Assembly: GCF_000002865.3 (NCBI RefSeq)
Contig: NW_001865042.1
Coordinates: 517,918 to 559,808 of the forward strand
DNA: 41,891 bases
Direction of reading: 5' to 3'
DNA from: Monosiga brevicollis MX1
Taxonomy: Eukaryota; Opisthokonta; Choanoflagellata; Craspedida; Salpingoecidae
Shown: one piece after another, positions 1 to 34,747 of the stretch
Layout: the number at the start of each line of letters is the position of its first letter
Position numbering within the stretch: the first letter of the stretch is position 1
Program-made: the position numbers and the translations under genes
The notes under the pieces: model-generated
What the model was told of the DNA's origin: nothing
Database searches by the model: none
Seen by the model: the letters and a program-made list of their open reading frames with translations, nothing else

Positions 1-3000
1 CTGAGCTCTCTAATTCACCGGCCAGGTAAAATTTGATCTCCAACTGTGCTCCCCGAGTCCCACTGAGATCGACCTCCCGCGTAACCTTGGTTGAGCCTCC
101 ATAGAACTGCCGGGTCAATACGAGCGCGCCGTTGTAGATGAACACGTTACCAGAGGATGCACCACCATTGCCTGCATCGGTCTCAACCCAGGACGCAGCC
201 CAAGGCTTGCTTCCGTCGTTGTTGCTGTAACTGTTTTGTGAAAATGCGTCATGCACGGTTTGAGACACGCTGCAGGGTGTTGTCGTGGTCGTCGTGGTCG
301 TCGTGGTCGTCGTGGTCGTCGTGGTCGTCGTGGTCGTCGTGGTCGTCGTGGTCGTCGTTGAAGCACACGTTTGATATTCCACAGAGACTTGCTCGATCAT
401 TAGATATTCATCCGATGCATGTAAGTTTGCTTTGACACCAAAACCAACCCACACGTCTCTTTGACCCAGCAGTGCTGACAGGTCATACACGCGTTCCGTC
501 AAGCTCTTATAGTCTGTTGCCACAAACTCCTCCCCCACCATGGCACCGGACGCAGTCATGGCGCCAATGTACGCCACGTCAACATTCTCCACGTCACCAA
601 CAAACTTGAACGAAACGCGTAACGTTGCTGCAGACGCGTGCTCCAAAGAAATGGCGCGATAAACCTGGGTTTCACCGTATCCGTTACCACTACCCTTCAA
701 ATAGAGTTGCCCACCACTGATAAGCGCGTTTCCGCCTGCCGCACCGCTTCCGCCTGCATCTGCTTCGACCCAGTTGCTACCAAAAGCTATGCTTCCAGAG
801 TTGCCTGAATAGCCGCCAGATGCAAAGTTGTCGGCGTACTGTAGGTCTTGACACGACTGCTCACAGTCATCAAACGTGATCTTGACGTAATCGATAACAA
901 AGTACTCGCCTGGGCCCGCGAAGCCACTGTCAATGTACAGCTTCACGACGGTGTGGGATGATGCATATGCTGACAAATCATACGTCTTCGTGTTGTACGT
1001 GTTCTTGCCACAACGTGATGCTGTATACGAGTCCAACTTGTAGTGCGAGCCATCCTTAATAATCCATAGAGATGCCTCATCTGAGCTCTCTAATTCACCG
1101 GCCAGGTAAAATTTGATCTCCAACTGTGCTCCCCGAGTCCCACTGAGATCGACCTCCCGCGTAACCTTGGTTGAGCCTCCATAGAACTGCCGGGTCAATA
1201 CGAGCGCGCCGTTGTAGATGAACACGTTACCAGAGGATGCACCACCATTGCCTGCATCGGTCTCAACCCAGGACGCAGCCCAAGGCTTGCTTCCGTCGTT
1301 GTTGCTGTAACTGTTTTGTGAAAATGCGTCATGCACGGTTTGAGACACGCTGCAGGGTGTTGTCGTGGTCGTCGTGGTCGTCGTGGTCGTCGTGGTCGTC
1401 GTGGTCGTCGTTGAAGCACACGTTTGATATTCCACAGAGACTTGCTCGATCATTAGATATTCATCCGATGCATGTAAGTTTGCTTTGACACCAAAACCAA
1501 CCCACACGTCTCTTTGACCCAGCAGTGCTGACAGGTCATACACGCGTTCCGTCAAGCTCTTATAGTCTGTTGCCACAAACTCCTCCCCCACCATGGCACC
1601 GGACGCAGTCATGGCGCCAATGTACGCCACGTCAACATTCTCCACGTCACCAACAAACTTGAACGAAACGCGTAACGTTGCTGCAGACGCGTGCTCCAAA
1701 GAAATGGCGCGATAAACCTGGGTTTCACCGTATCCGTTACCACTACCCTTCAAATAGAGTTGCCCACCACTGATAAGCGCGTTTCCGCCTGCCGCACCGC
1801 TTCCGCCTGCATCTGCTTCGACCCAGTTGCTACCAAAAGCTATGCTTCCAGAGTTGCCTGAATAGCCGCCAGATGCAAAGTTGTCGGCGTACTGTAGGTC
1901 TTGACACGACTGCTCACAGTCATCAAACGTGATCTTGACGTAATCGATAACAAAGTACTCGCCTGGGCCCGCGAAGCCACTGTCAATGTACAGCTTAACG
2001 ACGGTGTGGGATGATGCATATGCTGACAAATCATACGTCTTCGTGTTGTACGTGTTCTTGCCACAACGTGATGCTGTATACGAGTCCAACTTGTAGTACG
2101 AGCCATCCTTAATAATCCATAGAGATGCCTCATCTGAGCTCTCTAATTCACCGGCCAAGTAAAATTTGATCTCCAACTGTGCTCCCCGAGTCCCACTGAG
2201 ATCGACCTCCCGCGTAACCTTGGTATGAGCCTCCATAGAACTGCTGGGTCAATACGAGCGCGCCGTTGTAGATGAACACGTTACCAGAGGATGCACCACC
2301 ATTGCCTGCATCGGTCTCAACCCAGGACGCAGCCCAAGGCTTGCTTCCGTCGTTGTTGCTGTAACTGTTTTGTGAAAATGCGTCATGCACGGTTTGAGAC
2401 ACGCTGCAGGGTGTTGTCGTGGTCGTCGTGGTCGTCGTGGTCGTCGTGGTCGTCGTGGTCGTCGTGGTCGTTGGTCGTCGTTGAAGCACACGTTTGATAT
2501 TCCACAGAGACTTGCTCGATCATTAGATATTCATCCGATGCATGTAAGTTTGCTTTGACACCAAAACCAACCCACACGTCTCTTTGACCCAGCAGTGCTG
2601 ACAGGTCATACACGCGTTCCGTCAAGCTCTTATAGTCTGTTGCCACAAACTCCTCCCCCACCATGGCACCGGACGCAGTCATGGCGCCAATGTACGCCAC
2701 GTCAACATTCTCCACGTCACCAACAAACTTGAACGAAACGCGTAACGTTGCTGCAGACGCGTGCTCCAAAGAAATGGCGCGATAAACCTGGGTTTCACCG
2801 TATCCGTTACCACTACCCTTCAAATAGAGTTGCCCACCACTGATAAGCGCGTTTCCGCCTGCCGCACCGCTTCCGCCTGCATCTGCTTCGACCCAGTTGC
2901 TACCAAAAGCTATGCTTCCAGAGTTGCCTGAATAGCCGCCAGATGCAAAGTTGTCGGCGTACTGTAGGTCTTGACACGACTGCTCACAGTCATCAAACGT

Positions 3001-3203
3001 GATCTTGACGTAATCGATAACAAAGTACTCGCCTGGGCCCGCGAAGCCACTGTCAATGTACAGCTTAACGACGGTGTGGGATGATGCATATGCTGACAAA
3101 TCATACGTCTTCGTGTTGTACGTGTTCTTGCCACAACGTGATGCTGTATACGAGTCCAACTTGTAGTACGAGCCATCCTTAATAATCCATAGAGATGCCT
3201 CAT
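1..3203. repeat. Direct tandem repeats of 1080, 1053 and 1070 bp
   Basis: The sequence starting at 1 recurs at 1081, 2134 and 3204, giving units 1-1080, 1081-2133 and 2134-3203, followed by a divergent partial copy to about 3460. The copies are nearly identical, including silent positions. The first two lengths are multiples of three; the third is not. A few variants mark the copies: cagcttcacg in the first against cagcttaacg in the next two, and ccggccagg in units 1 and 2 against ccggccaag in unit 3 and the partial copy. Confidence 0.97.
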
Positions 3204-3495
3204 CTGAGCTCTCTAATTCACCGGCCAAGTAAAATTTGATCTCCAACTGTGCTCCCCGAGTCCCACTGAGATCGACCTCCCGCGTAACCTTGGTATAGCC
3301 GTTGTAAGACTGCTGGGTCAATACGAGCGCGCCGTTGTTGACAAACACGTTACCAGAGGATGCCCCGCCGTTGCCCGGGTCGGTCTCAACCCAGGACGCG
3401 GCCCAGGGCTTGCTGCCGTCGTTGTTGCTGTAACTATTTTGTGAAAACGCGTCATGCACCGATTGCGTACAATCCGACGTTCTTCTGATTCGCTC
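1..3495 (-). CDS. Tandem-repeat secreted/surface protein with polythreonine linkers (partial, frame-broken)
   Basis: The minus strand encodes repeats of about 350-360 residues. Each holds two related beta-sandwich-like domains of about 160 residues (one opening around YADNFASGG, one around VHDAFSQN) that share a W-V-E-x-D-A-G-G motif and conserved Cys pairs near their ends. Domains are joined by a Thr-only linker of mucin type, encoded by a 9-bp repeat. I do not recognise a named family; extracellular adhesion or matrix binding is inference from the modular, Cys-bearing, Thr-rich design. The gene runs off the left edge. A likely acceptor at 3496-3497 opens the frame at 3495. In the unit 2134-3203 the frame is broken twice: about 2 bp missing in the Thr linker near 2469, and 1 bp extra near 2225. 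The stretch downstream of 2225 is then open to the window edge. The breaks may be real or assembly errors. Confidence 0.7.
279..360. repeat. 9-bp minisatellite (gtggtcgtc) coding polythreonine, 8 copies
   Basis: A 9-bp unit read on the minus strand as three Thr codons. Equivalent arrays sit near 1359-1412 (5 copies) and 2419-2482 (about 7 copies with a 2-bp deficit). Copy-number change explains the 27-bp length difference between the first two kilobase units. Confidence 0.9.
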
Positions 3496-8911: not shown

Positions 8912-11367
8912 TTAAAACTGGTCATAGTATGCAGAATCCTGCAGATGCCGTGGCATGCCCATTTGCTGGGATGTTAAAATGGCAGGTGCCACGGCGCTGT
9001 AGGAAACACGGCGACCGGAATGTGAGGACGGTGCGGCTGCTGCTTGGTGCGGCTTGGCATCAAAGTAGCCATCCGACTCCTCGCCAGCGGAAGGCGCAGG
9101 CTTGGCATCAAAGTAGCCATCCGACTCCTCGCCAGCGGAAGGCGCAGGCTTGGCATCAAAGTAGCCATCCGACTCCTCGCCTGCGGATGGCGCAGGCTTG
9201 GCATCAAAGTAGCCATCCGACTCCTCGGCTGGGGCCGGAGCTGTATCAAAGTAGCCGGCTGTCTCTTGTGAACCAGGCACAACGTCTTGGTAGAACCCGT
9301 CGGCAAGCTCGGGCCCCTGCCGGGACCTAGCTTCTTGATAAGTTGGGCCCCGAGGTGCCGGCGCTGTATCAAAGTAGCCATCCGATTCCACAGCCCCTGC
9401 CGACGGTGCTGGTGCTGTGTCAAAGTAGCCATCCGATTCAACGGCTCCCGCGTTTTGGGCCTTGACGGTCTTGGACAGCATGGGCTGAGAAACCGAATCC
9501 ATTCGTAGGTCCCGCCCGGCATCAATGTAGTCGCCCCCCTCGTCATCACCCGTGCCTGCCGTGTCGAAGTACTGGCCAAATTCAACTGCACCGGCGGTCT
9601 CAAAGTACTGGCCATCATCACCAGCCCGACGGGACCCTTGGCTATGCATACCAGCTGGACCGGCTTCTAAATAATGCCCGTCGGCACCGTCTGCACCCGA
9701 AGTGGTGAAGTATTGACCGCCATCGACTGGGCCAAAGGCTTGACCTTGATCGCCTGAAGTACTGTGCTGTTTCTGTGCACGTGCATAAGCCGAGTCTTGG
9801 ATTCGCCCACCGCCCGAATAAGCATTATTCAAATGAACACTTCGCGGAGGGGCTTCGTGGTGGTCAATGTCTTCCGATACATCGAGATAATCATCGCCAT
9901 CGACCACATTATCTTGCGCGCTGCCGGACCTCTGCAAAGGTAGAAAGCAAGCGAGAAACATGTGAGGCCAACAGCAAAGCCGAGCGTTTGAAGCACTCTG
10001 ATTCGTTCAGCAACAAACCTGTGTGGCGCCAGCGCCAGCGCCAGTCATGGGTAGATAGCCGCCTGTACTCTGGCGACCGGGTTGGTTCGCGTCTGCCATG
10101 TCCACGTAGCCGTCCGTTTGCTGTGCCCCGCCGACTTCAGAGTATGCGTTGCCCGGCATGCCAGCAGCAATTTCTGAATAGGCGTTGGTGGGCAAGGTAG
10201 CATCGTAACCGGGGTTCGCAGTTGGCTGTGAGCGAAATGGAGCGGTGGCCTCGGAGCCCACTCCCACGTAAGCCACGTTGGTGCGCATGAAGTTATCCTG
10301 GCCCGAGCCACGAGATGACGCTCCCTCAATGTGATTGTACCCGTCACCCTTGCTCAAAGCTAAGAATGTGTCAGAGAGGAAAAACAAATGAGAAACGACC
10401 GAGCAGGACGTGCAACCAAGCAACTAGCGCGTCATCATCTGGAGCCAGAAAGGGCGTACTGCTGCGTCGGCCGCTGATATGAGTATATTGCCCACTTTGA
10501 GACGACATCATGTGCTCGTTGTAGGCCGGGTTGGCCACGACGCTAGACGGTGCTATGGAGAAAAAAAATATAAATGTTCGGTCAATCGAACGTAGGCTTC
10601 ACGATCAAACACGTGCGCACGGGGATGAAATGAATGCTGTGGGACGGGATGAGTGCCATGAGGGGCGAGAGGAAAAGCGTACCCTGATGGCCCGGGTTTG
10701 TGGCGGCAAAAATCTTTGGCTGGCGGCGGCGGCAACAGGCGCAACACCGACACCCGTCGCAGCCATCACGGCAACAACAGCGCCAAATGCAGCAGAGGAT
10801 GATGAGAAAAGCGACAATGGAAGCCGCAATGATGATCCAGAGCAGGTTGTCCTGGATGGTATCGGAAACCTGGTCGCCTGTTGATTTATCCTGCTTGTTT
10901 GTGCCGGTTTCATCGTCATCGTTGTCCAGATCACTTGCATCTCCGCACTCGCGGTCGCTGCTCATGGAGGAATTCTTAATCGTAACTTTGTTCAAGTCTT
11001 GGCAATTAGTTAGGGCCTCACATTTGCCATTGTCCCAATTATTGTAGTAAGCACCAGTTTGGTACTCGCGACAATCTTTCAAGCAGGAATCAGACGTCGT
11101 CAAAAAGTACCAGTCCGGGACGCTGCTGGAGCTAAAGCGCGTGTCGCTACCCACGCGTGTTGGATACCGTTCTGCAGTCGGATAATTAATACAAGCATCG
11201 CAGGTGACCTCGTCAGAGCAGACGGCACAGCCTTCAGCACATTCATTGCAAAAGGAATTGACAGCTTGCTTCTCGCAGTACTGGCCAATTGAGCATTCGT
11301 CGTCGCTATCACAGGCCAAGAAGACGGGCAACAAGACCAGGCCAATCAGGACCCCAGCCCGTCGCAT
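8912..11367 (-). CDS. Receptor-like single-pass membrane protein with phosphotyrosine-motif repeat tail
   Basis: Four exons: 10683-11367, 10460-10552, 10019-10359 and 8912-9931; 2139 nt, 712 aa. Residues 1-18 are a signal peptide; 19-142 are a Cys-rich ectodomain with CxxC spacing resembling furin-like or growth-factor-receptor repeats; an acidic stalk follows; residues ~175-195 are a transmembrane helix; then a run of Cys (CCCRDGC...CRCCACC) likely to be palmitoylated. The ~500-residue cytoplasmic tail holds 29 Tyr: one NPAY, two YxxM sites (GYVDM, GYLPM), NAYSE(I/V) twice, and many acidic (G/Q)YFD(T/A), including a 16-residue repeat. No kinase or SH2 domain is present, so this is probably a substrate and docking platform for tyrosine kinases. 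That function is inferred from motif content. The longer ORF reading begins at TTG, so the ATG at 11367 (A at -3) was chosen. Confidence 0.85.
9044..9238 (-). repeat. 48-bp coding repeat, about 4 copies
   Basis: The unit around cttggcatcaaagtagccat recurs every 48 bp and encodes a 16-residue module containing ESDGYFDAKPAP. Copies are nearly identical, while flanking related modules (GYFDTAPAP) have diverged. This suggests recent local expansion of tyrosine docking sites. The repeat is in frame and lies within the last exon of the receptor-like gene. Confidence 0.95.
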
Positions 11368-12464: not shown

Positions 12465-15400
12465 ATGTCGCGGCTGCCGCGCACCATCACACTCGAGCCT
12501 GCCAAGCAAGGGCTGCAGTTTAGCATTCGCGGTGGCGCCGAACATGGGTTGCCCATCATCATCTCCAACGTCGACGTGGGCAGTGAGGCTGCACGCTTGG
12601 GCCTGCGCATAGGCTGCGAAATCCTTTCCGTCAACGGCGTTTCCTTTCGAAATATCGAGCACAGCGTCGCCGTTGCCCAACTCACAACAGAACCCACGCT
12701 TCGCATCACCTTTCGATCCAATCCTCTCATTGAACGTGCGTCGAATTAAATGCCCATCCCACTGTCTTGTTGAATTTTGTTTTGTTTGGCTTTGGCACTA
12801 CCTTTCTGCTCGCGCTCAGGCGCGGTCGAGCTGCACCCCTGCTGGTGAACAGCATCTTGCTTGCAACTGAACCACACCCGCCCCCCCCCTGCCTGTGCTT
12901 TTACACAGGTGCTTTCACAGGTCAAGGCCCGGATTGTGAACCCGATCTTGCTGTGGACGCACTGATTCCACCGCTAACTGCCTTGCCACATCCTCACTCT
13001 GAATCCTCGGTGAGCGTACAAGAGCAACCCGGGCCAGAGGATGACGCAGCTATCCGTTCCACCGTTATTCAGCCCACGCACATGGCTTTGCCCCCTGCTG
13101 CCGCTGCATTGGGTACGGAGAGTGTGCACCTCGATTTGCACGGTGGCCATGACGGAGATGACGCCTTTGATACATCAGGGGCTGGTTCCTTTGTCGAGAT
13201 TGACGAACCTAGCGACGCAGAAACCTTGTCATTGGCGAGCCTCTCCTCCTACGCCAGCACTGCTGCCACAGGCTGGTTTGCTGCCAATAAGCAAAACCAG
13301 TCGAGCGACGGCATCGAAGAGCGCCTCCGATCCCTCTTTCGCACACCCACGCGCCGTGCCTCTGAAGTTATCGTGCCCGCACACCCAGGCAGCCCCCGAA
13401 CACCCGCGATAACACCACCCCGATTTTCTTTTCCCGCCCAAACCCCACACCCGTCTGGCAACAGCTCTGCGGCCACAAAGACAGATAAACCGGCCTTTGA
13501 TCAGCGGCGCATGGAGGCTCGCCTCCGTAGTCTTTCTCATCTGGCCAGCACGCCCTCAACTCGCACCCGTGAGCTTGCCCGCCGACCACAGCCGTTCACT
13601 GCTCCAATACACACGCTGCACAATGAAGCAGACGATCGCGACCTGGCGCCTGGCTGGACGAGTCACGTGGATTCGCGCACGAACAGAATCTTTTACGCCA
13701 AGTAAGCCTGCGTTGGACCACGCAACGTGCACAACGCATGTGAATCACTTGCCATTCTGACCGCCCAACCCCGCCCATGCCCCTCCTGTTTTACCAGCGC
13801 GGCAACACGGCAGACGACCTGGATCAAACCCGGTCGCCGGCAAGGCATACCCAGTGATCCGCAACTCGTAGACTGGCGAGGTATGATGTGCACTCTTGCT
13901 CTTCACACCATCCCCCCGCACGCATGCACACACACACATATACGCGCGCGTGTGCGCCACTTCCATTGACCCGCCTCGTCACTTGACTTGTGTAGCCTTA
14001 CCACATGGATGGGACATCGCGACCCACAAAAACGGAGAACCTTACTACATAAAGTTTGTCTTAAAGCACCTGCCGAGGCTAGCCTTGCCCACCAGCACCT
14101 GCGTGGCTGCACAGCCCGCCCCAGCCTCCGTTTCACTTGGTTTGTTCCTTGGTCTTTCGCAACTCAATCGTGCTGCAGTCACCTCGAACGCTGCAATACT
14201 TGGCATCACCCGCGCTGTGGCCGAGAGCAACGTTTACTCGAGCAAGTGACACAACAGCTAAATGAACACAGCCTCAAGCTCCGAGTATGTATCAAGTCGC
14301 CCTGATGCGTGCGAGAGGGTGGCGCGTCATTGGGCCAGGCTGCGTGCTCCCTTGATGTGTACATGGCCTTTTTGGAATAGGAGCAAGAGGGTGTTTTGCA
14401 AAGCCGAAGGGCCGATGCAACAGAGATTCAACAACGTTTGAATCGCATGCAAGAGCGACGAGCGGCTCTGAGCATGACACTCGCCCAGACTGAGGGTCAA
14501 TCCGAAGTTGAGGCTCGTTTAGAAGGCCAGCTTGAAATGCTTTCGGAGCAGGTTAGCCCACCCAAAGCCACAGTGGTCTCAACACGACGTGTCGCTGATG
14601 CAAATTTCCAAATTCTTGTCATCGCGCCTAGATATCCGATGTGATTACCGCTCAGAAGAGCGCTGCTGAAGTTGTTGAAGCGCAGACACAAATTGTGCGT
14701 CGGCGAAGAGAGCGCATCGAAGCTGTGGCCGACGTTCTCAGCCAATGTCAACAGCGCAGTGCTAAAGTGCCTGAGGTGAGGCACGGTGGCGCCATTCCAA
14801 AAGCCCCACCGGGCTCGATTCGTGCACTTTGGTGCACTCTCACTGAGTGGATCTGTAGATCGACCGCTCCCGCCACGCAGCTAGCACTGGCATGCACTTG
14901 CTGCGCCGGCTCAAGGCGGATTTCGACACGGCCGTGCAAGAATTGGCAGCCCTTGTCGGTACGCCGTCACGCCCATTGTTGGTCAGGGGAGTGCAGGCGA
15001 GCCGAACAACGTTGACTTGAAGGACCCATGACCTTCCATGTGTTAGATGCAGTTCTGGAGCAGGCTGGTGTGGCCGAACCATTCGGTGAACAGAGCCTGA
15101 TGGAGCTCGAGCGGCATCGCGACCGTGAATGGCTGGTGCATGTCGACGCAGAGCAAAACTTGCGCAGCGACCTGGAGATGCAACTGATTTCACTAACGGT
15201 AGAGCTTGAGCTGGCCCCCAAGGTATGATTGTTGATCTTGAAGCTAAGAACATGCCCCGCGCCAATGCCCTCGCGTCGAGTCACTCGCCACATGCAAGTT
15301 GCGCTCATTCGGTGCTCTGCCCTATTGATCAAAACAACAGTTGCGACTGGCCTTGAGTGAGTTGGAGCAGCTGCGTCGGCAGGAAATGCTCCGCTCGAGC

Positions 15401-20705: not shown

Positions 20706-23700
20706 CTAACTGTCCAAGCTCATCAGCAGTGCGGTGCCACGCTTGACCCAGTGTTCAGGGGGCAGATCACCGGTCTTGAGGTCCACCGAAATGACAAAGG
20801 ACCATGCAGACGCACCGCCTTCGCCCGTGCGGTTGGGATAGTAATAGCAGGGACAAGCATAGCTGCCTTTCTTGGCGACCTTCTTGTTCTCAACGGGTTT
20901 GAAGTGGATCGTGGGCATGCTGCTGACCAGCTGCATGGCCTCCGCCTCCACAAGGCAAGCATTGCGCTTATCCCACCCCGCACCCTCGAGGAAGAGTCCA
21001 CGCACGTAGACACCGTCCCTCGGCTCCTCCACAATGTTGACGTCATCGACGGTCATGACCGAAAACTCCCATGAGAGCGTGTCGATTGACACGCCGTTGG
21101 AGCGCGCCGCTTGCTGCAGCACAGCCGTGAGAAAGCCCGTCGGGAAGCTAAAGGCCGACATCCAGAAGATAAGGGGCTGGCGACCCGTGACTGCCCACTG
21201 CGTCAGAAATTCAATCCGCTCCACCAAGTCGCGCATCCACGAGGCCAACGGCTTTTGGGACGGGTACGTTGCTTTCCAAGCTACCGGCACCTCGCCCTGA
21301 TAGATGCACTCGAAAATCTGCTCCAGCTCGTGACTCATCACCACCAGTCCCTGGATACCGTGATCGAGGTCGACCAGGTTGACGCGCATCGCCTCCAGCA
21401 ATCGGTTGTATCGCTGGATCTCCTGCAGCAACACAATGTTCAACGGACGCGGATCAGCCGCCAAGAGCTTGGCCGTCGCCTCGTAATCGATGGTCTTGGG
21501 TAGCCGCGCCAGCATGTCCCGCGCCAGCTCCAAAACCTTGTCCTCCCGACTACCACCCTCTTTGGCGCTGACGGCTGGCTGCATGGACACCAGCGTGCCC
21601 AGCAACGTGCGGGCTTCCCGGATCATGCTTGAGATATCCGCGTTGGCATTTTGCCCAAAAGCGGTGGGGGGGTCCACGCCTGGCAGCGTGTTGATGTAAT
21701 CCTTGTATGACTGCAATGGGCCATCTGGAGGCACAAAGTAGAGCGGGCTGGCCGACACCGGGCACGCCTCCACCTGCAACACCTGATCACTGAACAGCTC
21801 GTTAATGTAGGTCAGCAAGAGGCGTCGATCCCAGTCATCTGTCACGTGGCCACCGTAGTTGATGCCCGCAATCAGGTACTTGAGTGACTCCCACGGTGTC
21901 TCCTCATACTCGTCCAGGAAGAGCGCCAGCAGGTTCTCCGAAACCTCAAAGTCCGAGTCGTTGAAGGGGTATTGCACGTTCCAGCCCAGCATTTGGAACT
22001 TGCGACGCTCGAGCAAGATGCTGTGGAAAAAGGTCAGGGAAAACATCAGTTTCTTGTACTTGGACGAAGCGTTGCAGCGCTCAAACTGCTCCTCGCTGAT
22101 GGTGTTGTACAGCCGCTTCATGTTCGCCTTGATACCATTTGGTGGTTCCGTTGTCATCTTGATACCCGCCTGCAAAATCGAAATCGGGAAGCGCGGGTCC
22201 GGCTTGGAGCTGAGCCACAGCCGAAAGTCGGGGTGCGGCTGCTGTGACTCCAGCAGCTCCACCAGCTTACTCAGGGAGGGCATCCAGCTCAAGGAGAGGT
22301 GACAATTCGCCAGGAACACCCAGTCACCACGCGAAGCACCCTCGGCAATGAGGCGCTCCGCAATTGGTGCCTGCCCTTGACCGAGAGACAGGCTGTGAAA
22401 GCGGTCGCTCATACCGGAGCGTTCAGCAAGATCCAGCAGCTGCTTCGTCGGATCCACGCCCACAGATAGAACAAAGATGAGTGGCGTCATGGCATTGGAA
22501 TCCGCCAACACGGCGTTCATGTCAAGTGGTGGTGGCTCCACGAAGCGCTGGCCCAGGTTGTTGACAATGTACTGGATGGCAACAATTGCCACGCGGTCCG
22601 GGCGCAGCGCCCGCACAATGCACATGCGCTGCAGCTCATTGCAGGTGGCCTGCCATTCCCCTGGCAGTGGCGCCGTCTCCGGTTCGGGATGCACATACCA
22701 CGCCTGCCAGTCGCGCAGCTGCTGCTCAAACGAAGCCGTCAGTCCTGCAAACTTGGGTAGCAGCCGCTCCATTTCCGTCACGTTGTCCCAAGCCTCTGAA
22801 GTAATCCAGCCGGGCGCGGGGTTGGGCACCTGCGCGTCGCGATCGAGCACCTGACCGCCGCGTAGAAAGAAGTTGTACTCGCCCAAGGCAATCTTGTTCT
22901 GGCTCTCCAAGATCTTGGCATTCATGTGCAGCGCAAAGAGTAGTTTGTGCTTCTCAAACAGACCTCGGCAGGTGTAACGGTACACCGCATAGTTGTGATA
23001 CTCGTTGATGCTCTCGATGCGCTGGTCGAGCGCTGGCGCCTTGGCGCTGTTGTCGATGCTGAGCGTGTACAGATTGATGTAAGCATCGAGCGAAAATTGG
23101 TACATAGGGTCAATCTTGGACACATCATCAAGCACAAAGAAGAGCACCGACGCTCGTGACGCGGACGGACGGTAACCCTCACGTGCCGCATCAATCTCTT
23201 TCTCCGTTGCTTCCGCCACCACAAGTTGCTCCGACACCTCCACCGAGGTGACCTTGGAGGTGTTCAGCGTGTTGACCAGCTCCTCGTCGTCCAGAAGCGA
23301 GCCCTTGGCCGAGCTCAGAAGCTGCAGGATCTTATCTTCCAAGTCCACCAGCTTCTTCTTGCCCGCGGCAATGTTCAGAACGAGCTCATTCTTTTGCTTT
23401 TCCAGCTCCGGGCGCTCCTTGGACACGACAATGCCGAGCAGCTGCGCCTCCAAGCCCTGTTGGACGACCGCAAAGTTGACGATCGTGGTCTTGGTCGAGA
23501 TCTCGGGAGTGTAGTGAGGGTTGCTCATCTTGGTCGTCAAGTAGAAGCGAAAGTCTGGATTGTACTCAATCTCCTTATCCCCGAGCTTGAGCATCAAGCG
23601 CCCGCCCACCTTGGTAAAGGCTTTGTTCAGCACGGGGGCCAAGGATGGGTCCAGCTCCTCGCCCACATTCTGCATCAGCACCGGCGTACCAAACTGGATG

Positions 23701-26700
23701 GCGTTTTCGAGCGTGCGAATGTAGTCAGGTTGTTGCATGTCCACCACCTGCAGCTTGCGGTCGCGCTCCATGTTTTTGATCCATTTGATGGCCTGTCCCT
23801 GAGGGTCAATCATCAGTGGCCAGCGCCGGCCGCGTGTCACAATCACACCGTTCTCCGTGCTGAATTGGTCGGACGGCAGGCCTTGAATGTTCCAGAAGCG
23901 CACGTCTGTTGCCTTCGCCAACAGAGTTGTCATGCTGAAATCGGGATCGGAAGGGATGTTGTTGTCCCGAATGTGGCGCCGCCACTGCTCGACAATGCGA
24001 GCACGGTACTCGCTGATAAAGGGACCCAGGTATGAGAGAAAGCCAGCACACATGAGGCAATCACCCACCAAGAATTTGATGCCGCGTCGCAGCTCGCCAA
24101 CGCTCTGCTCCCAGCGCGAGCGCTCGCCGGCCAAGCCCGACACCAGTTTGGCGGCACGCTCAAGCTTGATCTCTGTCTGTTCACTCTTGATGCGCAGCTC
24201 TTCCTTGGTCTGAAGCTTGCTCTCGTAATCAGACTGCAGCTTGGCCACCTTCTCCGTCACCTCGCGCAGCTTGGCCTCGGCCTCTGCCAACGAGTCTTCC
24301 TTGGCCTTGAGGGCCGTTTGCGCCGCTTGCAAGGCCTGGCGCTTGGGTTCCACGACCTTGAAGATGCGGCCATATACATCCATGGCCCGAACCCACATGC
24401 AGAGCGAGCGTGCCGCATTCGAAACGCGACCCACCACATCTGGATCAAACTCTGGGCGCACAACGTAGGTGCGTACCTTTTTCAGCGTCTTCTCAGACAT
24501 GTTGTCCTTGTCAAACTCAATCAGTTGGTTGATAAAATTGGTGTCACCCAGTTGACGCTTGGCTTCCGCCCAGTCTGGCTTGGATTTGCGCAAAACCATG
24601 ACAGCCTCCATGACCATGGCCACGAGATCGGGCGGCTTGCTGTACGACTTGATCTCCGTGATGTCGCCCTTATTAAGCGAGTTGAGTGCCTCCATAGCGC
24701 TCTCCAGAGCCGGCAGGGCCTCGTCAAGGTCGGCCTGCGCATCCGAAGCCAACTTCTGACACTGTTTGGCCTCCACGCTAATCTTCTCGCTGCGCTGGGA
24801 CACGGCCATCTGCTGATCGTCGGCCTCGCGCTTCTGCTGTACAATGATGACGAGGTACTCCTCACACTCGCGCTGAAACTCGGCCACTTGCTTCTTCGTC
24901 TCAACCAGCTCGATGGACATTTGCTCTACCTTGGCACTTGTCTCGTCAATCTTGCCCAAGCCATTGGCAAGCTTGTCGGCAGCATCGCCCAGCTCGCGGC
25001 GCTTCTCCGCCAGGAGCTGCTTGTAGCCCATGACGAGCTCGAGGTAGTTGGTTGGTGTCACATAGTTGTGTCGCTTGAGTTCCTCCAGCATCTGGGCCGA
25101 AGAGCTCAGGACCGACTGCTGAATAACGGCAAAGGTGGATGAGACGGCCTTGCGGACGGCCTCGCCGTCCTCCCCAGTGCCAAAGTCCACATCGTGCATG
25201 TATCGGTGTGCCACGGCGAGTAGGGCATCTTCGGGCCATGCATGAAAGTAGTCGATGGTGGTACAGTTGACAAGGCCGGGGTACATGCGCAGGCGGTTGC
25301 GGAAAGCCTCGCCGACGGGGCTCATGCACAGGACAACGCGCAGGTTGTTGCGAACACGGCTGATGAAATACTTGTACAGGCCCACCGGCGACTCGTCAAG
25401 ACCTTGCTTGCGCGCCAGCGGTGCCAGCTCATTGCGAATTTCCTCCAACTCATCCGGTGCAAACAAGTTGGGAACCTCGCCGGAACTCAAAATGTTGTTG
25501 ATATCCTCCAAAAAGTCTTCAATGACAATTTGTGTGTCAGTAAAGAGGAAGACTGTCGGCTTGTTCTCAAGACCGGCTTGTCGATACAGCGTCTTGAGGT
25601 CCTCGCGAAATTCGTTGATGCGGTACTGCCGCGTGACCTCAATTTGGAACACCTTAAACTCGAGCACGTACGAGGCGAGGCGCGTGAGCGACTGCCGCCC
25701 AGACCCACCGACACCAATGAGCAGCATGTTGCCACGCTCACACCGCACGACACGGACGACACGGCACACGTGTTCAATGGCATCACGGAACAGAACCAGG
25801 TCCATGGGAACAAAGCCCGATTCATTGTACTCGTCCAAACGCTCCTGCAGCACGCGTCGCAGCACTTGGGGATCGCGCACATCCTCGTACACGGGATTGT
25901 CTTCGGCTTTCAGAAAGTCCGCAAAGACGGGCACCACGCGATTGGGGCAAAGGGTCGAGTAGGAGATGTTGAAAAGCTCGTGCAGCTTGTCCTCAATAAG
26001 CTTGGTGAATTCAGCCACGTCCGAAGAGCTGATGAGGCGATCGCAGAAGACGCGAAAGCACTCGTGCACCCACAGGCGCGACAGCGCATCGGTGGTGTCG
26101 TGTACGTCCTTGTGAGCGCGCAAAAGACCCTGGAAAACCTTGGAAATATCGCGCAAGTTGAAGAGGTAGTGGATTTTGGCCGGCGTAGGCAGCATGCGCG
26201 TAGACATGTACTCATAAACGTCAATGGTGCCATTGGTCACCATGTCACCCACCGGCTTGCACGCCTCATCAAAATCCTGTAGCTTTTGGTTGATCATGGT
26301 TCCAAAGATGCGTTGAATCTGCGACCGGCTGGGAAAGGTCATGTTGATGACGTTAAAGCGGCTCTGAAGGCGCCGGCTGATGACAGAGCGGCCGCCCCCG
26401 GGCGGACCCATGGCCGCCACGACTCGCATGTCCTTGATGTGTTTCAACACCTGTTTCTGCCGGTCGTACATGAACCCGTACTCCATGAGCTGGCGCAGCA
26501 ATTCAAGCGGGGGCTGGCTTCCAAAAGTATCCTTGGCCGGCATGTTCAGGTCGTCCAGGAAGGTGAGCAACTGCTTGCCCCCAAGGGGCACAAACACACC
26601 CTTGGTACGCTTCTCCACCTGGCCCTCAATGATCTCTTGCACGTTGTTTGAGCTGGTTTGCGAGGACATGTTGATGGTTAGGCGATTAAACTGCGCTGCA

Positions 26701-29700
26701 TCGAGCTTGGCCATGACAAGCTCGACCACCGAAGTCTTGCCCGTTCCAACTGGACCCACCATCAACGTCGGGCGCTGATGTGCAATCAAGTTGGACAGCA
26801 GAAACTCGTAGCGCACTGTGTCCACCGTGGGCACTTGAATTGAGTGATAACTTGCATCAGGGGCGTACTTCCACCCCGCCGAAAGCTCCTTCTCCCAATG
26901 AGCCCAAGTGTGATTCTTCACGTCCACAAAGTACTCGTACACGGTGTCCTTGGCTGGGAATTGACCCTCAATCTCACGGATGAAATTGTCAACCAACTTG
27001 CGACCTGCCTCGTTCACGCCCGCGCAAAGGGACCACACACAAGCAAAGAGGAACCACTGTTCCAGAAGACGCGCAAAGTGGGCCTTGTCCGCGGGGTCGA
27101 TGCCATTCTCGGGCACCAAAAAGGCGTCGAGCAGGTTGCACAGGGACGTCACCCGACTCAGGAGGGAGGTTTCCACGAGTTCTTCGCATTTGTGGCGAAC
27201 AAAATCAAGAAGGCGTTCGACATACTTCTCGAAAAGGGCCTGCAGCGGGCCGCGATAGGCTTCAAAGCGCGGATTACTGAGCCACGAAGTGACATAGGGT
27301 TGCCAGCCGAGGTCAGCCGTGTCGTGGTACACCATGCCGCAACGTGACACGGTTGCCGGCGACGCAACGGCCAGATCCTCAACCTCAAAGAGCAGCGAAA
27401 CTTGCGCCGGCATGGAAATGCGATCACCGTTGATGAGGGTCAGGATCTTGTTGTCGTCCATGACCGAATTCATGCTCTCAATCCACAGCGTATCAACGGG
27501 ACCATCAAACACAATCCACTTCTGATCTGGCTTCTCATCGGAGCAGACGTTGCGCATCACCGAGGAGAGCACGCCATCCGTCCACTCGTTGGTGGCAATG
27601 TTGAACTCGCCATACAGCTCAGCCAAGGAAAGCGCCTTGGGATTGAGCGGGTACTCCCGCACAGGTACAAAGCCCTCCACGTTGTCGCGTGCACACTGCG
27701 TCATTGCACGCTGCAGCGTGTGCCAAGCAACACTCTTGCCTGAGCCAGTGCGCCCGACAATCATGACGGAGTGGCGCGAGTTTTTCGTCTCAAAGAGCTG
27801 AATGGCTTTGGTGATCATCCAGGGGGTGGCTTGATAGCCCTGCTTGACCAGATCCGCCTTGATGGCCTCGCGGAAGGCTCCATACTCCACCTCCATCGTC
27901 TCCACGCCTGGGAAGAGGTCGGACATCATGTGTTGGAGCAGAGGCAGGTCAGCGCCCGTCATCTTGGCCACGTTCATGTCCTTCATGGCAAGCAGCAGCA
28001 CCTCCTCATGCGGCATTTCGGGCATCGCCTCACGCTTGCGTCCAGCATACAACAGAGTTGAGACCATGGCGCGAAGACCATAGTCATAGTGGTCTTGCTT
28101 GGACAGCTGCTGAGCTGCAAGCTTGTACAGAGTGTCAGCCTTCTTGGCGAGCACGCGCGTGTTGTTGAAACCCTGGCCAAAGAGGATGATCTCGGCGATA
28201 AGTTGCGTGTCTGGCTTCATCATGGAGATTGGACGGAACATGGACTTGAGGTTATCTGGCAACTCGGTGCGCCCGGCATAGCCAGGGTTCATGGTGATGA
28301 AGATGCCGCAAGACCAAAGCAGGTTGATGTCCATGCCCTCGAACGTGAAGCGTGTCTTCGGGTTCTCTGGCGAGAGCGGAATCTGAGCCGAGAGGATGGA
28401 GAGGATCTGCTGGGCCACGACGGAAAGCACTTCGATGTTGATGCGGTTGAACTCATCAAAACAACCCCAGGCGCCAGTCTGTGCTAGACCGCGGAACATG
28501 ACGCCAAGCGACTTGTAGTCCATGCCGTCAGAGCAGTTAATGACAATGACGTAATCACCCAGTGACTTGCCAAGATCCTTGACCGTCTCCGTCTTGCCGG
28601 TACCAGCTGGACCCTTGGGCGAGCCACCGCGCTTCAAGTGCAAGGCCGTCGTCAGGGTCATGTAGCAGCGGTCCGTCAAAGGCGTAATGACCAGGCGGCC
28701 GCTGTTGCCGGAATACTCGTACCCATAGCTGAAATGGGTGTTGGTTTGGCGGATGATGCACTCCCCCTCGCTGGGACCGGTTTCAGGCTTTTCCCAGTAA
28801 AACCGCAGCTGCATCAGCCACTCAAACGCATTTTGGTCGATGTTCGCCACTTTCAAGAGGCGATCGATAACGTCGCGGGAATGCACTTCGATGGTGATGA
28901 GTGCCACAAGCTTTTTGCGTTGCGTCTTGTTCTTGACGGCTCGCACAGCCTCAGTCAGCTTGTTGAGGAGTGAGACCTGCTTCTTCTTGATAGCTTTCAG
29001 GCCAGCTTTGGCCCCGTGTTTCTTGTCAGAGATGGCCTTGAAGCACTCAGATGTCCAAGCCATTTGACTCACAGTGAGAACAAGCTGGCCGGGCCATTCC
29101 TTAAGCCACTTGTCGCGCTTTTGCTTTCGATGCGCGACCATGCATTCCTGAAGCAGCTGCTTAAGAGTGTGCCGCATCTCTGTCTCCACAGAGGTCAGCC
29201 AGACCTCAACTGGCCCATCCAGGGCAACAGCGGTCTTAAACGGCACGTACTCTGCATCTGCAGAGGTCATGCCCAGCGCTTGAACCTGGCTGCGCCCAAC
29301 GGCATTGTGCAACTCCAGACTCTTGACATTGTCAAAGCATTTCAGCAAGTGCGGCTGCACGGCAGGCGGATTTTTGGACTGCCCAAGAATCTCGAGAAGG
29401 TCATCATTGGATACAAAATAGAAGCGAGGAAAGGCTTGACGCTTGGTCTCGAGATATTCATCCAGTGACTTTTGAATTTGCTCGAGTACGCCATTCATGG
29501 CGACAAGCTGTGCGAGCAAGCCGTCGCGGTGGGTCGCGCGACAAGCGTGGCAGTCCTTGTGCAGGTGCACACCAATATCCTTAAACTGGGCATCCATGAG
29601 GTCAAATTGCTTGGTTTCTTCGGGCAGTTGCTGCCGAATGTCCTCGCCAAGGAAGATGTTCTCCAAGTAGATCCACTGACGCTGCACGGTCAGCAACATG

Positions 29701-32700
29701 TCCACCACCTCCAAAACCGTTCCCAAGGTCTTCTCCCAGCGGTCCACGTCTGCCTCAAACGCCTTGACAAAAGGACTGGCCTTCATGGTGGCCAACTTGA
29801 TCTGATCATCTTCGAGCAGCTGGTAAATGTCGTCCGTTCCCTTGAGAATGAAGTGGCCACGTTCCTTGTGGGCCGCTGCCTCGAGCTCAACCGTGGCCCA
29901 CACCTCGGTGATGCCGGCCAATGTTTGCTCGATGCTCAGTTCCTTGCTAGCAGCCCGCGAGATGTCGCCCACTTCTTCGTTGAAGCGGTCAAAGCCGAGC
30001 TCGATCATGCGGCCAAGGGTAAACTCTTCTGACGTATGGCTGAAGTTCTCGCCGACGTGGCCTTGAAGGCGGCTCCAGTGGCGCTCACGGAGCGCTGGAT
30101 TCTTCAGATCCTCAATGAGAGGCATGGTGCGTCGGAATTGATCGATTTTGTTGCGATAGGCGGCGGTCATTTCCCAGTCCTTGTCCTTAACCTCACGCAA
30201 CATTTTGAGAAGCCGTTTGTTGAAGCTGGTCGCAGTTTGCGCGAGATCGTCCGTAACAATGTCAGCAAACTGTGTGTCTCGCCAAGAGATGAAATTGTTG
30301 TCCCACTCCTCCGCCAGACGCCAGAGCTGCTCAAGGTGGCCCAAATCTTTGACCGTGTCCAAGATCTCCTGAAATGGCTCTTGAGTGATGTCAAAGACTT
30401 GCAGGCCATTCTTCAAGGCTTGCTCCGCCTGGCGCGTCGTCTCCACCTTGGCCTTGAAGGTATCAATGGCCTTGAGGGCCTGTTCGGGTGTGAGGGATCC
30501 CGAGGTCGGGCCATCCTCGAGGAACTGGGAGCGCAACCCGGCAGCGTTGCGCGCGAGCTCGTCCAAGGATGCCAAGAGGCCTGACTTGCATTCGGATTTG
30601 GCCTCCTCGATGAGAGCAGCGCCCTCGCGGAGGGCGTCGTTGAACGAGGTCCAGGCGGCAGCCAGGTTGAGGTGAGACTGCTCCACCTGAGCACTTATGC
30701 TGACATCATACTTGTGAAGAATCTCAAATCGCTCCTTGAGTGGAGCAAAGCGCTGTTGAGTTGACTCACGGCGCTTACGAGCCTCGTCGTACAGGGCGAC
30801 GGACGCAATGACGGCATCGAGGCCCTCGGGGCGCTGGCGCAGCAAGCGGGCCTGTTCCTCGAGATAGGCGTGCAGATCAGCCAACTCCTGCACCGTTTGA
30901 TCATGTAGAACCTGGCTCAATCGGGTCTGCCATTCCTTGCAATGGTCCAAGAGAGCAAACTTGAGCAACGACGTGTCCAGGTGCAGAAACTGTAGGATAA
31001 CGAAAGTCTCCTCCTTCTGCACGTTGTGAGAGACCTCCCCATACCGGGCAATGTCGCCATCAAACTTGGCCAGGGAAGGCTGCATCTCGATGTATCGCTC
31101 AATGAAGCGTGCTTTATCGGTAGCCCAGATTTCGTAATAACGGTCACGCCAGCCCTGCGCAAAGGCCTCGGCCTCTGGGCGGCACTTGTCCATATCCCGC
31201 GCAATACGGTCCAAGAGCACGCGAACATCGCGGTCGGCGCGGGCAGCAGCCTCGTAGGATGGCAGATCCTTGACCTCACGCTGGCTCACGGCCGCCAACA
31301 GCCGCGGGATGACCACGAGACCAGCCATGATGCGATCGGCAACGGTGTTGACCAAGCGATAGGTGAAATCGAAGCTCGGCTGGAGAAGGAGCGAAGAAGA
31401 TGCATCATCCAAAAGGACGCCGACCTTGAAAAGAGGCGCATTGAGCGTCTTGCCGTCACCATGCAAAGCTCGATTAAGCTCGCTGAGAGAGCGACGCGCC
31501 ACGGTCACCAGAGCATTTTGAAGCCGCTCATCAATGCCGGCCACGTACAGCTTCCAGGCCGATTGCACGGCGCTGGGGTCACCACTAAAATCCTTGTAAG
31601 TAGCCCGCAAGGCTGCCACGATCTTTTGGTGAATGGTGCCCAGTCGGCTGAGAACGCGTGCCACGTAGCGCTCCTGTTGTTGCGCAAACTCCGTGGGCTC
31701 GTACATGGTCTTGGCATCGTAGACGAAAAGAGATCGCTGAGCGGCCGTGTCGCACAAAGCGCGCACGTAGGCCTTAGAAGCGAGGTAGTTGTCAACTTGC
31801 TTGCGCACGGTCGCAGCATTGGCGCGCACCGTGTTCACGTACTCCTTGATGAACTTGGCCTTGTCCCAAGTTAACTTTGTCAAGCCGTTGTGCACCTTGT
31901 TGTCAAGCAGCTGAATGCGTCGGCTGAAAAGCTGCTGCTCGTCGTCCGCCAAAAGATCGTAGATGCGGTTGTAGTCTCGCACCACCAGCATGGTCATGTC
32001 ACGTAGACAGCGCAGCTCCTCCGATCGATGGAAAATATCCCGCGCCGGTGCTGGAATGCTCATGCCCAACTTGTCAAAGTACTGGATCTCGCGAAAGAGA
32101 CGCTCGAGGGAAGGATCAAAGTTGAGGGCGAGTCGACGATCAGGGCGGCGCTTCATGAGACTGATTTCCAGCAGTGCCTTGAGGTCGGTGCCTAGTTGCG
32201 CGACCCAAGCGGCATGGGTCTTGTTGGCAAAGTCTGCAAGTGCATTGCTGAGCAATGAATGGCTATGCAGCACTTCGTTGCTAAAGGTCGCCTCGTCACC
32301 GCGGTGGCCCGCATCGGACGTGGCATGCAGCTGACGCGAAGTCAGCAGTTGCTGAGATTGATCGATGTTGGTGCGCAGCGCCAGCGCCCACATGCAAGCA
32401 CCAGCATACTTGGGCATCGTGGGTCCTACTGGAGGCGCGTCGCGCTGCTTGGAGAAGACTTGCTTGACATGCTCGAGCTCGTCGTTGAAACGCTTAAAAA
32501 CGCTGTCCGTGTGGCGGTTCAGCGCTCGGCGCAGCGTCTCTCGAGCTCGCAAAGGTGCAAAGATGGTCAGGAGCTCGACACCCTGCTCCACTGAGGTGGC
32601 TGTCTCAAATGCAGTGCCGATGATGCCCTGCATGAGCACTTCCAGCTCCTTCAGCGAGGCCTTGAACTGGACAAACTCGTGCTGAAACTTGTTGGACTTG

Positions 32701-34747
32701 ACATCGAATACGAGATCCTGAACCTGTCGCAGTTGTTGTAGGCTCGCGGCAAAGTTGGCCTCGAGCTGCTCGAGGCTGCGGCTGAGCTCCGGACCTCGGG
32801 TGCCAGCCAGAAGTGGGGGTGGTCGAGTACCAGCGCCCTGACGCCGAGCAAAGTGCTTTTGACTGACGCACACTTCAAGGAGATCGCGGCAGCGCTGAAT
32901 GAAGGCATCAATGTGAGCAAAGAAGCTGCTATGATTGACGTCCCAGCCTCGATTGGAGCAGGTCAGGTGAATTTTCTTGCGGTGCCGATATGTGGCCTTC
33001 CAGGCCTCGCAACAAGCGATGGCATCACGGATGACACGAGATGAATCATCGACATCTCCTTCAAAGATTTCGTCCACAGCAATGCATTCACAACAGCGCG
33101 AAATGATGGCGTTGCTCAGCTTCTGGAAGAGACTGGTGATTTGCTCGCGCGAGTTGTAATGCTGAGAGTGCAGCCAGATCATGCGCACGAGGTCGACCAA
33201 CTCAGGCAGGCGCTCCGGGATCGCATTGAGACCCAGCGTGTTGAGACGAGTGCAAGGATCAGCCAGCACGGAGAGAAACTTGAAATTGCTTTCCGACTAC
33301 GTCATTGGGGGAACAGGATCAGGGGATGAACAGCAAGGGACGACACGTTGATGGTAATTGCATATAATCGATCACACATTGCCCAGATCACCGAGGTAAC
33401 GGGCGCGGGCAGGGAAGACTTACCACGCTCATGCCCTCAGCAATCTTAGAGGCCCAGGACTCAAATTGGGAGACGTAGGAAGAGTTGGCAGCCTAGAAGG
33501 CGTGTAATGATCGCGCAAATGAGGGACGGTTAAAAAAAAAAATGAGAGTAGAAACAAATGAGGGAAACAACAAATGCTCGAGCCATACCCTCGGGGGTGA
33601 GGCACGACAGCAAGACACGAAAAGAAGCGGACCTTGAGCAGAGACAAAATACGTTGAGCTTTTGGTTGATCGAGTTGAGCGTGAATGCCGCTCATGTCTG
33701 CTTGGCGCTGGCGCCAGTAGGCAATTTCGTCGAGGGGCATGTCGATGGCGGCCACGCCCTCGACGCTCGTGCTGCTGAGCACCTGTCGCAGGAGGCGAGT
33801 CCATTGAATGACGGTTGAATCAAGACGCTGAAGGAGGTCTCGGTCTTGGATGGCAGCATCAGACAGCTCTTCATTGGGGATGTAGAGCACGGTTTTTCCG
33901 GCAGAGCGATTGCTGGCTTCGGTGAGCGCAGACATGAAGCGGTTGAGGCCAGCAGAAAATTCATTGCGCACAGAATCGGGCCAGGAGCCACCGGTGGTAA
34001 GGAGTGGTGCATAAATGTCACTCATGACCCGCAAGAGACTGGCCAAGTAGTCACCATGCAGAGCGCCGCAACGGACGTTCGCGTCAAAATCGAGCCAGGG
34101 GTACAGGTAGGTGTCATTGGTCCGCAGGAAGTAGTTGATACTACCCACAAGCTCTGTTGGGACTTGGTGGGTCACTTGCAGCACGCCGTCCTCGACGAAA
34201 ATGATGAGAGCAGGAACTTGTCGCTGGGTAAAGAACTCATACACCGCGTGAAAATGACCCTCCTCACCCCACTTGGCATCGCCCAGAGAAATGGTGATGC
34301 GCTCTTGGATGGTTTTGAGCTAGAACCAAGGGAGGCAGTCAGAAGCACGCGTTGAGAGGCAATTTATTGAGCAGACGACACAATCAAACACGCATGCACC
34401 AGGAGAGACTGGAAAGATAGATGTTAACGAACCATGTATTCACGCATATCCATCATGGGCATAGATGCCGGAGGCTCCGAGTCTGGGGTTGGGTCGACCA
34501 ACACCTCGCGCACCAACGGCTCTGCTGGGCCATCTTCTTCAACAAGATCATTCCCATTTGTGGCCGCCTTGGCTTCAATGTCTGCAGCTGGTTCAGTCGG
34601 AGACGATGGGGAAGGATCCTCAGCCGAAGGCACAACGGCCACCTCGGCTTTGACACTATTCACGGGCTCTGGGTCCAATGACCCGGTAGTGGTGGCGCCA
34701 CCATTGCCACCATCATCGGCGCTGGTGGTACCCGCGGCACCGTTCAT
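20706..34747 (-). CDS. DNAH2: Axonemal dynein heavy chain, DNAH2 type (inner arm)
   Basis: ATP-driven microtubule motor of motile cilia or flagella. Four exons: 34433-34747, 33633-34319, 33424-33492 and 20706-33296; about 4553 aa (human DNAH2 about 4430). Residues 1-105 are low-complexity and probably disordered. The tail follows, with TVLYIPNEEL then RLDSTVIQWTR and a later NSREQITSLF segment that match DNAH2. Four P-loops mark AAA1 (GPAGTGKT, ~28590-28612), AAA2 (GRTGSGKS, ~27735-27757), AAA3 (GPVGTGKT, ~26735-26758) and AAA4 (GVGGSGRQS, ~25695-25720); AAA1 Walker B is CFDEFNR. The stalk coiled coil and microtubule-binding tip lie at about 25000-24150. The C terminus has GAGWDKRNACLVEAE and ends GTALLMSLDS, as in DNAH2. 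Dynein identity is certain; the DNAH2 paralogue call is by remembered similarity. Only the first ~1.1 kb of coding sequence has introns. Confidence 0.93.

Follow-up and report, generated by a model that had tools for sequence, protein, structure and literature searches.

Here, we present a computational analysis of a gene of the choanoflagellate Monosiga brevicollis MX1 that is predicted to encode a receptor with a long, tyrosine-rich cytoplasmic tail. Judged by its predicted anatomy, this protein is likely to be a kinase-free docking receptor that resembles LAT and is phosphorylated in trans. Because the tail carries signalling-like tyrosine motifs and no enzyme, the receptor is probably a landing strip for other enzymes and signalling proteins. 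The gene lies at positions 8912-11367, minus strand, of a 41,891-nucleotide stretch of contig NW_001865042.1 (hereafter the window).

A predicted single-pass membrane protein without a detected kinase domain

The gene model comprises four exons and predicts a protein of 712 aa (Table 1). All three introns are of the GT..AG type (130, 100, and 87 bp, with 5' ends GTACGC, GTACGC, and GTTTGT and 3' ends AG), and, in this model built from the sequence, the reading frame is kept across the splices. By eye, alternative splice sites are possible for intron 2, which was modelled with the same donor, GTACGC, as intron 1; those seen change no tail tyrosine count.

Table 1. Predicted features of the receptor gene and its product, in window coordinates
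Feature	Positions	Strand	Content or basis
Exon 1	10683..11367	-	Start codon, signal peptide, Cys-rich ectodomain, TM helix, Cys-rich juxtamembrane segment; donor GTACGC
Exon 2	10460..10552	-	Tail part with NPAY (Y239) and YTHI (Y251)
Exon 3	10019..10359	-	YNHI, YVGV (ITIM-like), NPGY, YSEI-x8-YSEV (ITAM-like, not strict), YVDM, YLPM
Exon 4	8912..9931	-	Distal tail up to stop codon; holds 20/29 Tyr
Signal peptide, residues 1-18	11314..11367	-	19-aa hydropathy windows >1.6 at residues 1, 3, 4; cleavage site inferred
Ectodomain, residues 19-173 (155 residues)	10849..11313	-	14 Cys, one N-glycosylation sequon (N132), acidic stalk
Single TM helix, residues 174-195	10783..10848	-	Hydropathy peak 3.08; best-scored helix of a poor structure model
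Juxtamembrane RCCCRDGCDGCRCCACCRRRQ, residues 196-216	10720..10782	-	9 Cys, four CxxC spacings, basic
NPAY, PTB or endocytic motif	10521..10532	-	Motif scan
NPGY, second PTB or endocytic motif	10205..10216	-	Motif scan
YSEIAAGMPGNAYSEV, paired Yxx(I/V) sites	10133..10180	-	Motif scan; no strict ITAM pattern
YVDM, YxxM site	10097..10108	-	Motif scan
YLPM, YxxM site	10046..10057	-	Motif scan
Distal array, residues 447-665	9056..9712	-	YFTT, YLEA, YFET, YFDT, YIDA, YFDT x2, YQEA, YQDV, YFDT, YFDA x4
48-bp tandem repeat with ESDGYFDAKPAPSAGE	9051..9227	-	3.7 copies, 98% match

Searched against Pfam at E values up to 5, the 712-aa protein had no domain over the cut-off and two sub-threshold matches; no kinase domain was matched, nor was a PH or PTB domain, a feature of Gab/IRS-type proteins, at its N terminus. 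No hidden kinase was detected in this gene model, in which the tail reaches its stop codon at 8912 without a Pfam kinase match. The original prediction of a tail without a catalytic domain is thereby upheld. The protein was absent from titles and abstracts among the listings searched, which cover a minority of journals.

Hydropathy and charge support a type I single-pass topology with an ectodomain, as expected from the earlier proposal of a transmembrane, Cys-rich receptor. Besides the N-terminal segment, the putative transmembrane (TM) helix is the sole strong internal hydrophobic segment; the sequence is acidic just before it and basic and Cys-rich just after. The ectodomain matched no Pfam family over the cut-off, the first 218 aa had no relative among PDB sequences (best E 0.07), and a single-sequence AlphaFold model of the ectodomain (pLDDT 44.7) was uninformative and too poor for a fold search. 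In the juxtamembrane segment, CxxC spacings begin at residues 203, 206, 208, and 209. This segment is a candidate inside-positive signal and, from the resemblance of its CxxC spacings to those of LAT, NTAL, LIME, and PAG in the available text of the review (PMC2803307), a candidate palmitoylation site.

Several neighbours in the window were recognizable. A PDZ-domain exon (12465-13705, plus strand, E 1.4e-10) belongs to a gene transcribed away from the receptor; its start is about 1.1 kb from the receptor start, and a common upstream region is possible. An axonemal-type dynein heavy chain (20706-34319, minus strand) has one open exon of 4196 aa with the Pfam DYH2-5-8 coiled coil and, upstream of it, a DHC_N1-bearing exon. 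At 35238-36956, minus strand, an acidic low-complexity region precedes SprT-like parts, a zinc ribbon that falls below threshold, and an HMG box, a layout reminiscent of GCNA/ACRC. At 2-3495, minus strand, large repeats, nearly identical and 360 aa apart within a single ORF, are joined by poly-Thr linkers; the array extends past the window edge, and its open frame shifts between 2248 and 2383, at an intron or a break.

Tail tyrosines occur in nonrandom contexts

Both the share of tyrosine among the hydrophobic residues of the tail and the motif contexts of these tyrosines are far beyond chance. The expected 29 cytoplasmic tyrosines in about 500 residues proved correct to the residue: the tail after the TM helix measures 517 aa, has a low hydropathy, and contains exactly 29 Tyr (5.6%), all of them in exons 2-4 (about 485 codons). 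It is rich in A, G, S, D, and P, and the charge-hydropathy line places residues 226-712 on its disordered side (0.414 vs. 0.443). Tyrosine density alone is moderately unusual (5.6% vs. 2.72% in the dynein ORF of the window, binomial P 2.5e-4); the densest 500 aa of that 4196-aa ORF hold 21 Tyr. The ratio of Tyr to FILMVW is 29:68 in the tail compared with 114:1323 in the dynein ORF (P 2e-9).

Contexts were compared with 5000 shuffles of the tail sequence. An acidic residue occupies +2 of 19/29 tyrosines (shuffled mean 3.9), a hydrophobic residue (FILMVWY) occupies +1 of 17/29 (mean 5.4), and the combined Tyr-[FILMV]-[DE] is found at 13/29 (mean 0.52); each of these counts was reached in 0/5000 shuffles. 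Collapsing the repeats, by which a 17-aa unit loses one copy and a 16-aa unit three, leaves 25 tyrosines. Among these, acid at +2 (15/25, mean 3.0) was reached by 0 shuffles, a hydrophobic residue at +1 (13/25, mean 4.8) by 3 shuffles, and Tyr-[FILMV]-[DE] (9/25, mean 0.42) in 0/5000, while K/R near Tyr is depleted (5/25 vs. 11.1 expected; 51 shuffles equally low). Two NPxY motifs compare with a shuffled mean of 0.05 and were reached by 4 shuffles. In the dynein ORF, Tyr-[FILMV]-[DE] occurs at 7/114 tyrosines, and the difference from the 9/25 collapsed tail sites has a Fisher P of 2.5e-4.

The tail has a diverse proximal and a repetitive distal zone

The proximal zone (178 aa) has 9 Tyr, with Yxx[LIVMF] at 7/9 compared with a shuffled mean of 1.16. 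The distal zone has 20 Tyr, or 16 with repeats collapsed; here, Tyr-[FILMV]-[DE] accounts for 8/16 (mean 0.35) and Yxx[LIVMF] for 4/16 collapsed sites (chance mean 2.35). From these counts, the proximal zone appears to be a mixture of different SH2/PTB (or sorting) sites, and the distal zone, for the most part, a single site in many copies. The original prediction did not set apart the proximal half, where the vocabulary is a different one (NPxY, YxxM, and YxxI/V). Equally, to call the tyrosines mostly (G/Q)YFD(T/A) was an overstatement, since the strict motif covers 8/29 sites, four of them in near-identical copies of the 48-bp repeat (the tandem unit is 16 aa), compared with 13/29 for Tyr-[FILMV]-[DE]; YF(D/E) is found at 9/29.

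Our motif scan of the tail detected two ITIM-pattern sites and two ITAM-like patterns (a V-variant spaced by x8 and a YxxI pair spaced by x12), while YxN, YxxP, and strict ITAMs were all absent. The distal YF(D/E)(T/A) sites match none of the reader motifs tested. The proposal of an SH2/PTB ligand stands in part: a kinase-free docking tail best fits the anatomy, but these distal sites fit no reader motif among those tried.

In the YF units, pN/pS is 0.14 for Tyr to +3 compared with 0.53 and 0.57 in the flanks, a contrast that is weak because the units were selected for Y-F, biasing Tyr to +3. When Y and F are disregarded, the +2 and +3 identities across the seven distinct YF units (0.48 and 0.71) overlap those of the flanks.

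A second array and candidate kinases elsewhere in the genome

The earlier suggestion to look for the same module elsewhere was followed within the M. brevicollis genome itself, and it yielded a weakly matching array on contig C34 and a similar kinase tail on contig C40. In searches in which the best first-look candidates were scored, exon 1 (E up to 0.1), exon 3 (E up to 1), and exon 4 (E up to 0.001) each matched only themselves; because such searches score those candidates alone, a missing paralogue match does not amount to absence. With E up to 10, exon 4 had one weak match besides itself, at C34:551249-551377 (E 0.0175, 44% over 45 aa), and the reverse search from the C34 exon recovered the window tail at E 0.05.

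In the C34 exon, QRAYFDVQPRSQATGYLDVKPGPQGAPGYLDVKPVPRS is followed by PTYEGV and LYVDAQP, giving an array YFDV/YLDVKP/YLDVKP/YVDAQP near the C terminus of the draft protein. Upstream of this exon, on the same strand, lies a TM segment with YRKRRRR after it; the locus (C34:551072-555499, L024, minus strand) thus drafts as a second single-pass membrane protein, with the further tail tyrosines YAVL and YTEV. The draft model is rough and omits the first YFDV site. No kinase family was matched in the seven ORFs of the locus or in the draft model joining them. PTB-like domains suspected by eye in the middle of the C34 tail found no support from Pfam or PDB sequences. In a six-frame scan of 26 loci, at least four Y-[FILMV]-D-[VATLMI]-x-P sites in one ORF occurred only in the window gene (also L001, L002) and at C34, which is not an independent estimate because C34 itself came from the search.

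Kinase ORFs with Tyr-bearing tails were common among 20 kinase loci sampled, which had been picked for strong matches and mostly long open frames. Counted per open frame, with several tails split by introns, Tyr-[FILMV]-[DE] reached three sites at 2/20 loci (L021, in 183 aa, and L004, in 765 aa) and four at 0/20. As three sites occur at only 2/20 loci, Tyr-[FILMV]-[DE] is not a general substrate signature of the kinases of this species. In L021, the kinase carries an HM motif (LVHMDLACRN). A PID match (E 3.3e-5) lies about 1.3 kb upstream, probably as an exon of the same gene. The tail exon of L021 contains QGQYFQA, KDDYVDV, TDLYLDV, DDSYIEL, and EGSYMQI, and by eye, the exon after it gives DEYIDA. 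At this locus (C40:525212-528700; L023, L021), a PTB match thus lies upstream of an HM-motif kinase with an acidic Tyr-hydrophobic-(D/E) tail, and this kinase is a candidate both to write and to read the tail of the window gene.

Candidate readers and writers are plentiful, in line with the repertoire anticipated by the original prediction. Profile searches of the genome gave 114 SH2 and 13 PTB/PID matches, with 0/14 control genomes matching in either case, and at least 169 exon-wise matches to the Tyr/Ser-Thr kinase family, which include more than tyrosine kinases and which 9/14 controls match. Among the kinase matches listed, PTB lies just upstream of the kinase at three places (contigs C44, C56, and C27), a layout described for HMTK kinases (PMC3082566). 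PI3K p85, considered as a reader for YxxM, is unsupported: its two matches are both below the cut-off, and 2/14 prokaryote controls match too.

When the E limit was set at 1e-100, the kinase domain of M. brevicollis RTKC8 (PDB 8e4t, 265 residues) had no match in the genome; with a limit of 1e-30, it matched two loci on C21 at 93-98% identity, exon by exon, over query residues 1-142 and 136-229 of 265. Such matches point to a genome of M. brevicollis or a very near relative. The second piece of each locus carries a stop, at an intron edge or otherwise. The two near-identical RTKC8-like exon copies at C21:293709-304893 lie about 10 kb apart, which suggests a recent tandem duplication. Another kinase match, at C7:86555-87166, falls within a 29192-aa open frame, which may be a stretch of N devoid of stops.

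Discussion

The closest precedents for the receptor, as far as the available text of the relevant papers goes, are RTKB2 with its RM2 repeats and the vertebrate transmembrane adaptors; RTKB2, the nearest in the same species, has an array plus a kinase. From the accessible part of the RTKB2 report (PMC3584944), the two share a choanoflagellate membrane protein plan with a Cys-rich ectodomain part and acidic, Tyr-bearing tail repeats. RTKB2 has its own kinase domain (PMC3584944), whereas none was detected in the window receptor. Moreover, the six RM2 units are about 80 aa long with site peptides EEVYGAV and EEVYEAI (PMC3584944, as excerpted), compared with a 16-aa unit and GYFD(T/A) in the receptor, and a string search found no EEVY, common to both published site peptides, in the receptor tail. 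The disordered RM2 repeat is described there as phosphorylated by RTKB2 and MbSrc1 and then binding the MbSrc1 SH2 domain in vitro; for the whole RTKB2 tail in mammalian cells, the same portion of the report gives weak phosphorylation and no detected complex with MbSrc1 (PMC3584944). RTKC8 likewise has tail tyrosine peptides that are kinase substrates, the best of which has Asp after Tyr, but in the portion of its description at hand, it is, unlike the window receptor, a genuine receptor kinase, whose CAP-Gly tail has 10 Tyr (PMC10263333).

LAT, NTAL, PAG, and LIME resemble the receptor in their single TM helix, lack of an enzyme, juxtamembrane CxxC, and long tail with multiple Tyr motifs; the CxxC palmitoylation motif is a feature of a subset of these TRAPs (PMC2803307, in part). 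In the same text, the extracellular domain of TRAPs is described as short and their Tyr motifs as numbering at most 10 (PMC2803307), compared with a predicted signal peptide, a 155-aa Cys-rich ectodomain, and 29 Tyr in the receptor. In the Pfam search, the one sequence comparison that bears on this point, no family passed the cut-off and no relationship to the TRAPs was seen. Because of the long ectodomain and the lack of visible homology, we do not file the receptor as a TRAP, yet it would be adaptor-like in its working. IRS and FRS2 are multisite Tyr docking scaffolds without catalysis and, as Gab/DOS, are soluble or lipid-anchored and recruited to membranes. The receptor, unlike Gab/DOS, IRS, and FRS2, is itself predicted to be a membrane protein with an ectodomain; it shares with Gab/DOS, as summarized in the text available (PMC2747914), a multisite Tyr scaffold without catalysis.

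The strongest alternative is an endocytic or sorting receptor, such as a Cys-rich cargo or scavenger receptor, in which NPxY and YxxPhi bind PTB-type clathrin adaptors and AP-2 without phosphorylation. The two NPxY motifs, the 11 Yxx[LIVMF] sites in the tail (shuffled mean 3.8), and especially their occurrence at 7/9 proximal tyrosines speak for it. However, the number of tyrosines is far above sorting needs, the motif scan found no dileucine signal in the tail, and in the collapsed distal zone, Yxx[LIVMF] is near chance, while Tyr-hydrophobic-acidic is strongly enriched. We therefore regard sorting as an unlikely account of the protein; for the proximal half, it is a real rival and is compatible with docking.

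It could also be argued that the tail is a low-complexity sequence grown by repeats, in which Tyr and Phe in Gly-Ala-Pro-Asp linkers act as stickers or spacers without any phosphorylation code, as the 48-bp tandem repeat, the A-, G-, S-, D-, and P-rich composition, and the +2 and +3 positions of the YF units, whose conservation (Y and F disregarded) does not clearly exceed that of some flanking positions, would allow. We judge this improbable: the motif enrichment persists after repeats are collapsed; the sites of exons 2 and 3 lie outside the tandem repeat in distinct SH2/PTB-like contexts; and codon differences among YF units are mostly synonymous from Tyr to +3, although this last measure is biased by the YF-based choice of units. 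Finally, an extracellular tail with acidic tyrosines sulfated or cross-linked for an adhesive or matrix use, for which acid at -4 to -1 of 19/29 tyrosines (shuffled mean 12.8) could be cited, is highly improbable, given that the hydrophobic N terminus, the 14 Cys, and the sequon all precede the TM helix and that acidic residues precede this helix and basic, Cys-rich sequence follows it.

Returning to a docking receptor phosphorylated in trans, we propose that it may work as follows. The ectodomain would sense a ligand or partner, and clustering of the receptor would bring it close to a receptor or cytosolic tyrosine kinase (Src-type or PTB-bearing HM-motif), which, as a neighbour, would phosphorylate the tail in trans. 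Proximal NPAY and NPGY could recruit PTB proteins, including PTB-kinases; in support of such a step, the PTB domain of HMTK1 binds an NPxY peptide in a pTyr-dependent manner, favouring NPxY phosphorylation (PMC3082566). The recruited PTB-kinases might then processively phosphorylate the dense distal YF(D/E)(T/A) array, while SH2 effectors would be drawn to the YSEI/YSEV, YVDM, YLPM, and YLDV sites. Being nearly identical, the distal repeats would confer valency (avidity and local clustering) rather than diversity, and, as for LAT, palmitoylated juxtamembrane Cys residues may retain the receptor within a membrane domain.

The tyrosine kinase complement of M. brevicollis has been described as a match for that of any metazoan (PMC3584944), and the cited work on this species, in the parts available, concerns kinases bearing their own tail sites (PMC3584944, PMC3082566, PMC10263333). 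More tentatively, and with considerable doubt, the window receptor could represent a class of kinase-free transmembrane docking hubs with a pTyr word of their own, Tyr-hydrophobic-Asp-(Val/Ala/Thr)-x-Pro, used by at least two otherwise dissimilar receptors, with an echo in the tail of a PTB-bearing HM-type kinase acting as both its writer and its reader. If so, multivalent scaffolding of the LAT type, phosphorylated in trans, would either predate animals or be independent of them. The receptor offers a cheap and clear test set: 29 sites that fall into a few vocabularies, plus another receptor whose array is similar. If it is indeed a substrate-only receptor, the separation of sensing and scaffolding from the enzyme, as in immune adaptors, would also have arisen in a unicellular organism.
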